Part shown: piece after piece, positions 33,698 through 39,441 of the stretch | Numbering within the stretch: the first letter of the stretch is position 1 | Layout of the letters: every line of letters starts with the position of its first letter | Origin: a virus | Strand: one strand, 5' to 3' | DNA length: 64,000 nucleotides | Virus record (IMG/VR): IMGVR_UViG_3300023179_000038 | Coordinates: 46,678 to 110,677 of that record | Translations under genes and position numbers: made by a program | Notes under the pieces: generated by a model | Databases searched by the model: none | The model's input: only the letters and a program-made list of their open reading frames with translations | What the model was told of the DNA's origin: nothing

Positions 33698-33706
33698 TAT
33701 GAGTCT

Positions 33707-33715
33707 ATTTTACCA
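33707..33715 (-). promoter_or_regulatory. Extended -10 promoter TGG-TAAAAT, leaderless
   Basis: TAAAAT on the minus strand at 33707-33712, 9 bases before the ATG at 33697; no Shine-Dalgarno. Confidence 0.45.
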
Positions 33716-33733
33716 CAAAGGACTGTTTATTTT

Positions 33734-34228
33734 TTAATTTTTTGGAATCCACAACTTTTCGTTACCTTTATTGTGATACCTTGCCATAACAAACAGTAGG
33801 TCCGAAAGCCTGTTTAAGTATTTTGCAATATTTATGTTTAATCCTTCAACTTTCCAAACCTCACGCTCTGCCCTTCTCACAATAGTTCTTGCGTTATGTA
33901 AGGGACCTGTAGGTAAAACAAAAGAATGAAGCGGCTCTAGGTACTCGTTATAATCATCAATTATATTTTCTAAATGAGTGATTCTTTCTTCTGATATTGT
34001 TATGGTTGGAGCACCAGAAAGTTCTGCACCAAGATCAAATAAATCACTTTGGATTCTGTCTATGATGTCATTATGATATTCCGTCGCCATTCCAATAGCG
34101 GAGTTGGCTTCATCTACTGCACCTATTGCTTCAATTAAAGAACTGCTTTTGTCTATTCTTTCATTTGTAGCGGTAGAGGTTTTTCCATCATCGCCAGTCT
34201 TTGTATAAATACGAGTTAAGTGAACCAT
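33734..34228 (-). CDS. PduO-type cob(I)alamin adenosyltransferase
   Basis: 164 aa. Family signatures all present: IYTKTGDDGKT (ATP-binding N-terminal loop, residues 7-17), AIGAVDEANSAIG, SFVLPTG, ARTIVRRAERE and YLNRLSDLLFVMAR. Reaction: transfer of the adenosyl group of ATP to cob(I)alamin, making the coenzyme needed by class II ribonucleotide reductase, whose gene is three genes upstream in the same operon. ATG overlaps the TAA of the small membrane gene (TAATG). Confidence 0.95.
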   Translation of the reverse strand: MVHLTRIYTKTGDDGKTSTATNERIDKSSSLIEAIGAVDEANSAIGMATEYHNDIIDRIQSDLFDLGAELSGAPTITISEERITHLENIIDDYNEYLEPLHSFVLPTGPLHNARTIVRRAEREVWKVEGLNINIAKYLNRLSDLLFVMARYHNKGNEKLWIPKN

Positions 34229-34392
34229 TAGTGCCCTGTCAAAGAACGCCAGATATCAACTGTAATGCTGTTGGCTATATAAAGTCCAACCAAATTTATA
34301 ACCAATTGAAATGCGTACTCAATTTTAGTAGGTTTCTTTTTTTGTAACGGAAAATCTATAACATTATATAATTCTTTATAGGCTAATCTCAT
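34228..34392 (-). CDS. Small membrane protein of the cobalamin operon
   Basis: 54 aa (begins MRLAYKELYNVIDF). One hydrophobic segment about residues 27-45 (YAFQLVINLVGLYIANSIT). ATGA overlap with the DUF4430 gene upstream and TAATG overlap with the adenosyltransferase gene downstream, so it is locked into the same translation unit. Function unknown; a link to membrane uptake of cobalamin is a guess from context. Confidence 0.7.
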   Translation of the reverse strand: MRLAYKELYNVIDFPLQKKKPTKIEYAFQLVINLVGLYIANSITVDIWRSLTGH

Positions 34393-34844
34393 GGAAATAT
34401 TAACTCTCCTTTAGGACCAGTCCAAACCAATCCAACTGAGTCTCCTGGATTTAAATATTGTTGATCTATGGCAAGTTGTCCCCAACCCCACTCATTGCGT
34501 GGAAATGGAATAACTTGTTTTTCTTTTATTATAATTGCCCAATACGCTTCTGCGGGTGGCATAACTTCACAAGACTCTGCCTTTTCATCTGGCAAACCAT
34601 TAACTCTACAAACTACTCCAAGTCCGTATTTTTTAGTGCCTTCTATTTCAAGGTTGGCTTGTTTTAAAACATCTAAAGCAAGAATGCTACTAGATGATTC
34701 TACACATTTTTCTAACTTTGTTTGATTATCTAAAACTCCATAATCAACATAAAGATTTATACAGTTGTTATCTGGTTTGTTTATAACAAACAGTGTTGCT
34801 CCAACTGCTATAAAAATTGCTAATGATGCTAGTATTTTTTTCAT
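34389..34844 (-). CDS. Secreted/anchored DUF4430 (transcobalamin-like C-terminal) protein
   Basis: 151 aa. N-terminal signal or anchor helix (residues 4-21), no lipobox. The rest follows the DUF4430 pattern: VDYGV, SSILALDVLKQA, VVCRVNGLP, PPAEAYWAIIIK, then NPGDSVGLVWT. Four cysteines (28, 47, 79, 92) could form two disulfides outside the membrane. Known: this fold forms the C-terminal half of transcobalamin-type B12 binders, and actinobacterial versions lie near transporter genes. Between a B12-dependent reductase and a B12 adenosyltransferase, a cobalamin-binding role is a reasonable inference. Confidence 0.75.
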   Translation of the reverse strand: MKKILASLAIFIAVGATLFVINKPDNNCINLYVDYGVLDNQTKLEKCVESSSSILALDVLKQANLEIEGTKKYGLGVVCRVNGLPDEKAESCEVMPPAEAYWAIIIKEKQVIPFPRNEWGWGQLAIDQQYLNPGDSVGLVWTGPKGELIFP

Positions 34845-34854
34845 TTTATCCCAC

Positions 34855-36885
34855 TTAGTATAATTTTATCTCACAAGCGTCTGTACTGCAATAGGCTTCA
34901 CCTTGTGCTTCTAGATTTTCTACTCCATCATAGATGGCAGACCAGTCAATCTTTGCAATTTTGCCTACGTAAGAATTGTACTCTTCTCTTGTAATATTGT
35001 TATATGGTTGTTGTGGAAATGTTTCATTGCCCATTGGCAAAAATGAAACAGCCTTTAATTCGCCCTCATAAAGATGAAGTGCTGGAGCCACATGTTTTTT
35101 TTCTGTTTCTTTATCAAATGATAGAGTTACAGATACTCCATTATCAGACCAGTATTTTTGAGCGGTAGCAGCCAAACCAATCTTTTCAAAAAGACTTACA
35201 TCTTTTTCAGAACGTGGATGTTCAGATGCTACTGGAAAATATACTACTGAAGTATTGGCAGACACTAAGTCTGCTTCTACTTTATACCCTGCTGCTTTGA
35301 ATAAATGAAGCATTGGATCTGTATTTCCAAACCTTATGGCACGTAGATAAAATGCCCCTCCTGGACCCCAGTGAACTCCTGGTGTTGCACCAGAAAGTAG
35401 TGAAACGGATCCTGAAGGTTTGACAGTAGTTACACGAATTGATTCACGTACACACAGCCACTCAGAGTATGAGTGATCGTATGCTTTAATTTTTTTATAC
35501 CCTTCGTCCATCCATTCACGAACTGCTGGCATGCCTTTTGTATCTGCAAAAGATGCAATACCAGTTAAAGATGTTCCAATACGACGATTACGTTGCATAA
35601 TACCATTTGTGGTTTGCCAATGTGTTGGCATCAGGGTTACAGTCTTTCCATATAAATACGCAAACTTTAGTGTACGAAGAAAATCTTCTTTATCTTCATG
35701 ACGGTTTAAGTGAACCTCTACTAACGTACATAGTTCGTATGATTCTAATGGTTGTTCTGCACATGGATTAAAGCCCATTACACGATAATCTTTTCCATCT
35801 GGTGCATCTGCAAGTCTTCCATAGTTACGAGCAACGTCAAGCCAAATAAATCCTGGCTCTCCATTATCTGCAATTAAATCAACATAGTCTTCATAGTTTG
35901 TTCCAACTTCTGCAGCAATAGAGTTATTGGACATCCAAGCCCACCCTGGATTTTTTGGATCATAAGAATTACGTTCTGGAAAAACCTCTGCATTTTTTAA
36001 ATTACTAAAATCTTTGTCATCTGCATCTCCTAAAGCAAGAGTGGCAGAACGACGAACATTTCCTGAAACTACGCAGGTACCAATAAGATTAACAATATCT
36101 ACTATTGCACGAGAGTCAAATTTGTCCCCTGCCCTAGATCCTATAATTTTTGTAATACGGTTGTGTAAGTCCATTAATGGCTCTGGACCACTGGCTACCC
36201 CACCAAAACCCTTAATAGGTGCTCCTAGAGGCCTTATAAAGTCATACGTGAACTGTTGTATAGGTTGGTTTGGACGCAGGTATGAATTAATTAATAATCT
36301 TACAGACTCAACCCAACCCTCTCTAGTATCAGGAATTTCATATATTGAGGGTGGCTCTGTTGGCGCATAGATTAACATTTCTTTCTCTTGTCCAAGGGTA
36401 TCAAACCCTACCCCTATGCCTAGCATTAATGCATCCATTACCCAGGCAAACAATGCCCCTGGATCATTACGATCAATGTCACGAGTAGAAACCATTGCAC
36501 AATTTTGTAAAGCAGCAGAGTTGCGTTTTTCCATTGTCATAGGAGTACCAAAAGCCCATAAGCCACGACCAGGGGGAGTCCATTTTAAATTAAACATTCG
36601 ATCAAATGCTTCTTGTGCAGATTTTTGTGCCTTATAGTCGTTCCAAGGTAAACGATTTTCTTTAGCATGATTTTTTTGAACAGAATACATTCCTTCAATT
36701 ACACGTTTGCAAACTTCATACCATCTTTCTTTAGTATTGTCTTCTTTCATGCGAGAATATGTTCTAATAAAAGTAATCTCTCCCAAAGAATTACTAGCAG
36801 CATCTTTAAATCCGAAGGGCGCTTCAAGTTTTTTATAACTCTCTATAAAATCTAATGATAATTTAAAAGAAAAAAAGTCTGACAT
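34855..36885 (-). CDS. nrdJ: Adenosylcobalamin-dependent (class II) ribonucleoside-triphosphate reductase
   Basis: 676 aa, the size of monomeric Lactobacillus-type enzymes. Catalytic residues visible: Cys129 in LQNCAM, thiyl Cys375 and Glu377 in NPCAEQ, Cys386 in ELCTL (11 residues apart, as in the reference enzyme), and the C-terminal redox pair CSTDAC (666, 671). Makes dNTPs for phage replication without oxygen dependence. Start set at the second ATG (36885), 8 bases after AGGAGA; the first ATG at 36891 is only 2 bases away. First gene of the cobalamin operon; extended -10 promoter upstream. Confidence 0.96.
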   Translation of the reverse strand: MSDFFSFKLSLDFIESYKKLEAPFGFKDAASNSLGEITFIRTYSRMKEDNTKERWYEVCKRVIEGMYSVQKNHAKENRLPWNDYKAQKSAQEAFDRMFNLKWTPPGRGLWAFGTPMTMEKRNSAALQNCAMVSTRDIDRNDPGALFAWVMDALMLGIGVGFDTLGQEKEMLIYAPTEPPSIYEIPDTREGWVESVRLLINSYLRPNQPIQQFTYDFIRPLGAPIKGFGGVASGPEPLMDLHNRITKIIGSRAGDKFDSRAIVDIVNLIGTCVVSGNVRRSATLALGDADDKDFSNLKNAEVFPERNSYDPKNPGWAWMSNNSIAAEVGTNYEDYVDLIADNGEPGFIWLDVARNYGRLADAPDGKDYRVMGFNPCAEQPLESYELCTLVEVHLNRHEDKEDFLRTLKFAYLYGKTVTLMPTHWQTTNGIMQRNRRIGTSLTGIASFADTKGMPAVREWMDEGYKKIKAYDHSYSEWLCVRESIRVTTVKPSGSVSLLSGATPGVHWGPGGAFYLRAIRFGNTDPMLHLFKAAGYKVEADLVSANTSVVYFPVASEHPRSEKDVSLFEKIGLAATAQKYWSDNGVSVTLSFDKETEKKHVAPALHLYEGELKAVSFLPMGNETFPQQPYNNITREEYNSYVGKIAKIDWSAIYDGVENLEAQGEAYCSTDACEIKLY

Positions 36886-36916
36886 ATGCATAATCTCCTA
36901 TTGTTTTGAATAACTA

Positions 36917-36933: not shown

Positions 36934-36972
36934 AAAAAAGAAAAACTCTACCTAAAGTTATAGTATAGAGTT
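36934..36972 (-). terminator. Possible AT-rich intrinsic terminator with overlapping alternative hairpin
   Basis: Stem AACTCTA / TAGAGTT (arms 36966-36972 and 36944-36950) followed on the minus strand by TTTCTTTTTT. The AGAGTTTT arm can also pair with AAAACTCT just downstream, an alternative fold that ends at the promoter. The stem overlaps the stop codon of the upstream gene. Confidence 0.45.
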
Positions 36973-37462
36973 ATTTAGATTCTAAAACAATCTGTCTTAA
37001 TTTTGATATTAGGGCTTCAATATTATTAATATGAAGTTTATAAAATTCATATTTTGTGTTTTGAACTTGGTCCAACTCATTTGCATATAAAATTTCTAGT
37101 AAAGATAATTGTTTTTGTGGATCTAAATTCATGGAGTTTTTTAAAATAATTTCATTTCGATCTTTTAATGAAAAATAATATACAAGTTCTTCTGCATCTT
37201 TACCTATATAAAGAATCACATCTTCTTTGTTAATTTTATCCTTTAAATTAAATTTTTCAGTACCATAGCAAGAATGATAAAGTCCAGCCAGACATGTTTT
37301 CTCTGAAGCACCCATACTTTTTAATAAAAAGAAAACATTGTATAGGTGTGCAAAAAGAGAACCCCTTAAGTGAGGAATATGTTTTATTTTATCAAAAAGG
37401 TATTTAACTGCTAATACTTCTTTTTCTGTAAATTTAATTTCTTTTTCTGTAAAGTTAATCAT
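36971..37462 (-). CDS. HD-like DUF6817-type protein (inferred)
   Basis: 163 aa, all-helical. The block HLYNVFFLLKSMGASEKTCL-AGLYHSCYGTE matches my recollection of DUF6817-type proteins, with a conserved-looking His, then LFHS-YGT. A phosphohydrolase or binding role is possible; no metal-site set is complete. Start at ATG 37462; a TTG in frame at 37477 is less likely. Directly upstream of the reductase operon. Confidence 0.6.
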   Translation of the reverse strand: MINFTEKEIKFTEKEVLAVKYLFDKIKHIPHLRGSLFAHLYNVFFLLKSMGASEKTCLAGLYHSCYGTEKFNLKDKINKEDVILYIGKDAEELVYYFSLKDRNEIILKNSMNLDPQKQLSLLEILYANELDQVQNTKYEFYKLHINNIEALISKLRQIVLESK

Positions 37463-37480
37463 TATTAATTTATCCAAAAA

Positions 37481-38271: not shown

Positions 38272-39441
38272 TTAAGCAGGAGTACTTGGAGTAAAGTCTT
38301 TTACAAGCATTTTCTTAGTAAAGAAGTTATCATATGGCTCGCAGTTTATAGCAACTTTTTGCATATATAATTCTACAGCCTCAACAAGTTCAATATCAAC
38401 AAATGCATTGTCTTCAAATGAATATCTTTGATATGTTGTATCTATTTGTGATGATTGAATAAACTTTACAACGCCATCTTTTTTAGTTAAAATCCAGTGT
38501 GTATTAGAAAACATATCTCCATCAATGTATACGAAGTCTGTTTCTGTTTGAATACCAATCCATGTAATTGTAGTTTCAACAACATTTAAATCTGATACAT
38601 TTACGTTTGAAGGAAGTGTCCAATTTTGCCAATATGCTGCAGAGTTATCATTAGACTCATCTCCAAGATCTAAGGCTAAAAGTTTATCTCCAACTTGAAG
38701 TTGACCAGCAGGCTTTGTTGCTTGTGGTTCACCTGCAACTGTTGATAAAAGAACTTCTGTATTTATGTTTAGTGACCAGTCAAAGCCAAATGCACCAAAA
38801 GCACCAAATGCACCAAAAGCACCGAAAGGTGCAAAGGAAAATGTTGTAGTTACGTTGTTTGAGTTTGAAGATGTTCCAGAGTTTCCATTGGCATTAGTTG
38901 CACGAACGTTATATGACTGTGCAGTTCCTTGCTCTTGTCCAACGTCAACAGATGTTGATGATGTATTTCCAGATTTACCATCTGTTGATTGCCAGAAATA
39001 ATTAGTTATTGCGCTACCACCGTTATTTGGCGCTGACCAAGAAATTCTGTCAACTCCAGCAGATGGTGATGATGCTGAAGGCGCTGAAGGTGTTTGTGGT
39101 ACGGTTGTTGCAGTAATGCTATTAGACGCAGCAGATGCTGGAGAGTTTCCAACTGCATTTGTTGCTACAACTGTAAATGTGTATGCTGTGCCTGATTGTA
39201 GACCAGTTACAGATATAGGAGATGATGCTCCTGAAGCAGTATATGATCCTGGAGAGGATGTTACTGTATAAGATGTAGCAGCAGGGCCTGATGAATCATG
39301 TGTAAAGGTTACATCTGCTCGTCCATTATTAAATGCACGTCCCGATCCAACATTTGTTGCTGATACTGAAGTTGGTGCCTTTGGCTCCAAAAAGTCATTT
39401 GATGCTTGGGACTTTTTACCTGATTTTTTACCTGCTGCCAT
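38272..39441 (-). CDS. Virion protein with FN3 repeats, GAF-repeat hinge and Hint-like C-terminus
   Basis: 389 aa. Residues about 20-115 and 118-205 are two FN3 domains (TSYTVTSSPGSY...LQSGTAYTFTVVATN and the second copy). A short FGAFGAFGAFGAFG hinge follows at about 212-226. Residues about 230-385 resemble a Hint (hedgehog/intein) domain: SLNINTEVLLS in place of CLxxxTxV, LQVGDKLLALD, SNTHWIL and CEPYDNFF. Ser replaces the usual Cys and the terminal HN is missing, so self-cleavage is doubtful. Ribosome site AAGGAGA. Confidence 0.75.
   Translation of the reverse strand: MAAGKKSGKKSQASNDFLEPKAPTSVSATNVGSGRAFNNGRADVTFTHDSSGPAATSYTVTSSPGSYTASGASSPISVTGLQSGTAYTFTVVATNAVGNSPASAASNSITATTVPQTPSAPSASSPSAGVDRISWSAPNNGGSAITNYFWQSTDGKSGNTSSTSVDVGQEQGTAQSYNVRATNANGNSGTSSNSNNVTTTFSFAPFGAFGAFGAFGAFGFDWSLNINTEVLLSTVAGEPQATKPAGQLQVGDKLLALDLGDESNDNSAAYWQNWTLPSNVNVSDLNVVETTITWIGIQTETDFVYIDGDMFSNTHWILTKKDGVVKFIQSSQIDTTYQRYSFEDNAFVDIELVEAVELYMQKVAINCEPYDNFFTKKMLVKDFTPSTPA

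Follow-up and report, generated by a model that had tools for sequence, protein, structure and literature searches.

A candidate vitamin B12 capture and activation cassette next to the class II ribonucleotide reductase gene of a phage

How does a phage whose ribonucleotide reductase depends on adenosylcobalamin obtain this coenzyme? The occurrence of nrdJ, the gene of the class II enzyme, in phages is already well known, and Wu et al. 2023 (PMC10547690) suggested that phages with a class II ribonucleoside-triphosphate reductase (RTPR) may 'regulate or enhance B12 uptake or production'; the source of adenosylcobalamin for such phages in B12-auxotrophic hosts is an explicit open question in the same work. 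We analysed the final 64 kb (referred to as the window) of the 110,677-base IMG/VR virus record IMGVR_UViG_3300023179_000038, in which nrdJ is followed by the genes of a 151-aa protein, a 54-aa protein and a PduO-type ATP:cob(I)alamin adenosyltransferase. The latter three form a mobile cassette that probably joins host-derived genes for B12 capture or uptake to coenzyme activation and supplements a phage in which adenosylcobalamin was already required.

NrdJ, PduO and riboswitch-linked bacterial homologues

The nrdJ gene product reached 356.2 bits with TIGR02505 (RTPR, cut-off 340.05), which places it among the monomeric class II reductases, and it matched the B12-binding insertion domain PF21995 (52 bits, cut-off 27) as well as PF17975; a PHROG search assigned it to phrog_367. 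Residues C119, N406, C408, E410, C419, C731 and C736 of the Lactobacillus enzyme (1L1L) were all aligned and conserved. This alignment upholds the full catalytic set claimed in the original prediction, and the gene product is identified from its sequence as an adenosylcobalamin-dependent ribonucleoside-triphosphate reductase. As in class II RTPR virioplankton (phrog_367, PMC10547690), a monomeric adenosylcobalamin-dependent reductase makes the phage dependent on B12; whereas that study deals with nrdJ only, the gene is accompanied here by an activation enzyme and by two host-type, B12-linked membrane genes in coupled form.

The putative activation enzyme matched PF01923 (E = 2.8e-47, 161 bits, cut-off 24) and TIGR00636 (150 bits, cut-off 108), and the ATP- and corrinoid-site motifs TKTGD.G.T, DE.NS, F.LP.G, AR..VRRAER and YLNRLSDLLF were invariant in 19 phage copies. 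These scores and motif residues identify the 164-aa protein as a PduO-type adenosyltransferase, as had been predicted. Its closest solved relative was the corrinoid adenosyltransferase of M. tuberculosis (2g2d/6wgs), whose motif residues align with the phage enzyme end to end, whereas several loops are shortened in the phage form. The closest bacterial relatives in the scan came from freshwater actinobacteria (~50% identity), and the phage enzyme is ~20-25 aa shorter than the bacterial forms. Two separate phage recruitments of PduO types had looked likely from the tree, but a single phage clade was not rejected by the approximately unbiased test (p = 0.795) and two recruitments are therefore not claimed. 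PduO-like matches were also obtained in 15 GenBank phage records, mostly short, unannotated and with <43% identity; these are probably not comparable.

The link of the other two genes to B12 comes from bacteria. The sample comprised 121 genomes, partly draft, from the order of Ca. Planktophila, which is reported to rely on others for B12 (PMC7527133). An earlier scan of genome contigs with the 151-aa alignment gave no relative; a whole-genome search with a hidden Markov model then revealed chromosomal homologues of the 151-aa protein in six genomes (E = 1e-40 to 1e-45). In all six, an adenosylcobalamin/cobalamin riboswitch above the Rfam gathering score is located 53-75 bases upstream of the homologue, and 8 bases after the homologue starts the gene of a single-helix protein of 53-56 aa, with WGGH, WGGHY or WGAC as its C-terminus. 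Riboswitch, DUF4430-like 175-aa protein and 53-56-aa membrane protein occupy one conserved chromosomal place in these genomes (L240-L245). In five of the six this was the only cobalamin riboswitch found; the sixth (G032) has a second one before nrdH-nrdI-nrdE, encoding a B12-independent reductase (L248 / G032:C1:250883-253811), which suggests a B12-repressed class Ib reductase alongside the class II NrdJ. Both NrdJ and PduO are present in each of the six genomes, with pduO not adjacent to the gene pair. With their bacterial homologues arranged as an operon directly after a cobalamin riboswitch, the phage 151-aa and 54-aa genes appear tied to B12 acquisition. This linkage in six bacterial genomes bears out the B12 association originally predicted for the two genes and is evidence independent of that prediction.

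Profile searches of the six genomes detected neither FecCD/BtuC nor a BacA-like importer. None of the six yielded an S component resembling those encoded close to DUF4430-like genes of other actinobacteria, one near-complete contig being checked additionally, and EcfT exceeded its cut-off in one genome. A weak CbiQ/EcfT-like match in G032 was rejected in view of its location among cell-shape genes. As BtuC, a matching S component and a BacA-like importer were not detected, the pair may belong to an unrecognised uptake route. In the wider Actinomycetes, distant homologues of the 151-aa protein occur beside genes of energy-coupling factor (ECF) transporters, many with cobalamin riboswitches and one group showing none. 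These clusters (L307-L313) combine a distant homologue of the 151-aa protein with B12 riboswitch control, but genes of EcfT, EcfA and S subunits lie close by, whereas the six genomes and the phage cassette pair the protein with a mini membrane partner only. The phage cassette encodes no EcfT, EcfA or S subunit and is thus not an ECF-type B12 transporter. An Rfam search of the phage revealed no riboswitch; control by the B12 level has therefore presumably been lost in the phage copies.

The closest homologues of PduO and of the 151-aa protein, together with a phage tRNA-Glu(ttc) (G000:C1:10155-10228) identical in 74 of 74 bases to tRNA-Glu of G032, make freshwater actinobacteria of the Nanopelagicales type our best guess for the host. 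The three other phage tRNAs were not close.

Predicted fold of the 151-aa protein and features of the 54-aa protein

Sequence searches with both proteins in Pfam, NCBIfam, PHROG and PDB gave noise only. The PF14478 (DUF4430) model matched none of 34 phage members or 25 mixed members of the 151-aa family at E-values up to 10, and the PF14478 profile gave no match in the 14 genomes to which PduO had led. An AlphaFold (AF2) model was built from the 34 phage relatives (predicted local distance difference test 77.9, predicted template modelling score 0.70) and compared with 350,542 PDB chains using Foldseek. The top match was the DUF4430 protein 3u7z (E = 1.3e-3), followed by transcobalamin (5no0, 7qbe, 2bb5), intrinsic factor and haptocorrin with probabilities of 0.97-1.00; other folds mostly had probabilities of ~0.6 or below. 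A fold search in BFVD gave no match. With E-values of only 1e-3 to 1e-2 the PDB match is good but not decisive, and a DUF4430/transcobalamin-beta-like fold is assigned to the modelled domain with moderate strength.

The original prediction of a secreted, transcobalamin-like DUF4430 protein is thus supported by the predicted fold and by the context of the bacterial homologues, but not by the Pfam profile. Nor is the protein likely to be freely secreted: a hydrophobic segment at its N-terminus looks like an anchor, so that it is probably membrane-bound. Four cysteines (28, 47, 79 and 92) are invariant in the family. The predicted fold and the proposed capture of B12 outside the cytoplasm are shared with the transcobalamin beta domain and DUF4430 (PF14478; 5no0, 3u7z). 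In contrast to these, the 151-aa protein is bacterial and phage-borne, is N-terminally anchored, lacks a Pfam match, and has no alpha6/alpha6 barrel domain, either within itself or encoded beside its gene.

The 54-aa protein shows one hydropathy peak (residues 27-45) with a net charge of +3 ahead of it, and its topology is probably N-in/C-out. Its C-terminus, WRSLxGH, is near-invariant in the alignment, and histidine is the last residue in 132 of 132 loci. Across the mini proteins, the last or last-but-one residue is histidine in all phage copies, and histidine or cysteine in the bacterial ones (WGGH/WGAC). Histidine serves as the axial cobalt ligand in transcobalamin. Cysteine does so in BtuM (PMC6072759). 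Since both are known axial ligands, the terminal residue of the mini protein may be a cobalt ligand in place of the absent alpha domain.

Gene layout and mobility of the cassette

The four leftward open reading frames of the original prediction were all recovered on the minus strand at the expected location (Table 1). Only the nrdJ start needed revision, from 36885, where a second ATG (MSDFF) lies, to the first ATG at 36891. The predicted junctions were both present: the genes of the 151-aa and 54-aa proteins share ATGA (4 bases), and the 54-aa gene overlaps pduO by 1 base in TAATG; a 10-base gap separates nrdJ from the 151-aa gene. Among relatives, 99 loci have a spacing of -4 at the former junction and 26 have -10; the latter is -1 in all 128 loci. 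These overlaps are not due to chance.

Table 1 Features of the nrdJ locus, with positions in the window
Feature	Position	Strand	Description
nrdJ	34855..36891	-	678 aa from first ATG; monomeric class II ribonucleotide reductase; core gene of the phage group, outside the mobile cassette
151-aa protein	34389..34844	-	N-terminally anchored, extracytoplasmic, with predicted DUF4430/transcobalamin-beta-like domain; proposed B12-capturing part
54-aa protein	34228..34392	-	Single-helix membrane protein; proposed partner of the 151-aa protein
pduO	33734..34228	-	PduO-type ATP:cob(I)alamin adenosyltransferase, 164 aa
Mobile three-gene cassette	33698..34854	-	From nrdJ stop to start of next phage gene; absent in relatives (empty-site comparison)
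1245-aa phage gene	29960..33697	-	Downstream border of the cassette, outside the system; directly after nrdJ in cassette-less relatives

The genes of the 151-aa protein, the 54-aa protein and PduO were contiguous in 70 of 72 distinct phage loci, and nrdJ was adjacent in 57. Median ratios of nonsynonymous to synonymous substitution rates (dN/dS) of 0.225 (151-aa protein), 0.261 (54-aa protein) and 0.054 (PduO) indicate that all three are under purifying selection. For the empty-site comparison, relatives were chosen by an unrelated structural gene and counted only with enough flanking sequence. In 35 of 35 such relatives nrdJ was present at the same site without the cassette, and in many cassette-less relatives ~25 bases separate nrdJ from the 1245-aa gene. 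In a second phage lineage of distant relatives (L129-L153) the same triplet is located in the replication region, between genes of a 111-aa and a 281-aa protein; the present phage has both of these neighbours, too close together to accommodate the triplet. In the second lineage, the two longest records have their own class II reductase elsewhere (30% identical), and such a reductase is present wherever records are long enough. Being absent at the nrdJ site in relatives and present at a second genomic site elsewhere, the triplet moves as a unit. Contrary to the original prediction, nrdJ is therefore outside the linked set: these sequence comparisons place it among the core genes of the phage group, with a separable, mobile add-on formed by the other three.

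The position after nrdJ and ahead of the 1245-aa gene is a cargo hot-spot (L418 5171-6290, L442 5750-6268, L447, L446, L461), being either empty or filled with 2-oxoglutarate/Fe(II) oxygenase genes or with the B12 cassette. At the replication site, pduO occurs alone, without the 151-aa and 54-aa genes, in relatives of the second lineage (L072, L077-L080). Portal, head protease and head proteins are encoded downstream. Elsewhere in the window, a DUF6817 protein (PF20680) is encoded immediately upstream of nrdJ (36971-37477, minus strand). A 389-aa protein (38272-39441, minus strand) combines a fibronectin type III domain with a C-terminal half of Hint/intein-like appearance, the latter without Pfam confirmation. 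An S-adenosylmethionine decarboxylase gene (PF02675; 57366-57755, plus strand) is possibly a phage polyamine gene.

Proposed mechanism, alternatives and meaning

We propose that a phage with a core adenosylcobalamin-dependent reductase gained, downstream of it, a translationally coupled cassette that would secure the coenzyme. The anchored 151-aa protein and its 54-aa membrane partner would capture cobalamin on the outside of the host membrane and help it into the cell; the bacterial homologues probably do likewise when the B12 riboswitch permits expression. After entry, PduO would adenosylate the corrinoid, and NrdJ would use the resulting adenosylcobalamin to make deoxynucleoside triphosphates directly from nucleoside triphosphates. 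We infer B12 binding, import, the identity of the host and a benefit during infection.

Several observations weigh against this proposal. The 151-aa family is without a Pfam or PDB sequence match, and the fold match is modest (template modelling score ~0.45, query-normalised; root mean square deviation 4-5 Å). The bacterial gene pair is limited to six of 121 sampled genomes, and most of those six yielded no standard B12 importer by profile. The bacterial and phage 54-aa proteins share 15-25% identity (hhalign probability 6.6%, P = 0.0055), and because identity is this low the case for their homology depends chiefly on position and length together with the WR..GH at the C-terminus. The phage relatives carry nrdJ at the same site without the cassette, and the cassette itself encodes no translocation machinery, so that the permease moving B12 is the weakest link.

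An alternative is that the 151-aa and 54-aa proteins hold or chaperone B12 at the membrane, or remodel another cobamide for PduO, with a host transporter performing the import. The cassette indeed has no transporter-like subunit, only single helices, and the DUF4430-like protein is an accessory to ECF genes in the wider Actinomycetes, where it is presumably insufficient alone. Nevertheless, we consider such a role somewhat unlikely, since in five of the six bacterial genomes the pair is the sole riboswitch-controlled locus found, as is typical of uptake genes, and those genomes yielded no S component, BtuC or BacA-like importer. The bolder version of our own proposal, in which the 151-aa and mini proteins are the core of a minimal B12 uptake system that replaces BtuCD, ECF or BacA in some of the most abundant freshwater bacteria and was captured by phages together with PduO, is also put forward with reserve and judged unlikely.

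It is more doubtful still that PduO alone matters, offsetting a weak adenosyltransferase activity of the host, and that the other two genes are host passengers. PduO is conserved far more strongly than the other two proteins, and some phages have pduO without the pair; however, the 151-aa and 54-aa genes are themselves under purifying selection and accompany pduO in nearly all loci, and in one phage (L100) the pair persists although pduO is missing. Nor are the genes passengers of a single host operon, because pduO lies apart from the pair in the host genomes. Very improbable, finally, is a function in superinfection exclusion or envelope modification, with the proximity to nrdJ and pduO as a by-product of cassette recombination. 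Small membrane proteins are frequent exclusion factors, and the unrelated oxygenase genes show that the slot accepts other cargo, but defence-system models gave no match, the triplet is kept together at two unrelated genomic sites, the bacterial homologues stand under cobalamin riboswitches, and the best fold match of the 151-aa model is a B12 carrier domain.

The cobS/cobT auxiliary metabolic genes of phages have likewise been assigned to B12 metabolism, but as late biosynthesis genes (PMC9301287, PMC9599517), whereas the present cassette would combine capture with coenzyme formation. A phage cassette for B12 capture and activation was not found in the open-licence papers searched (subscription work may be missed) or in 50,697 GenBank phage records, none of which encodes the 151-aa protein.

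Phages with class II reductases are abundant in water, and the cassette would be a concrete answer to how they obtain adenosylcobalamin. The resemblance of its membrane genes to a riboswitch-controlled host operon suggests that phages can steal a vitamin supply line of their hosts. The finding also draws attention to a candidate locus for B12 acquisition in Nanopelagicales genomes that, for the most part, yielded no standard importer. If the proposal is true, viral infection would be a direct lever on the flow of B12 in lakes.

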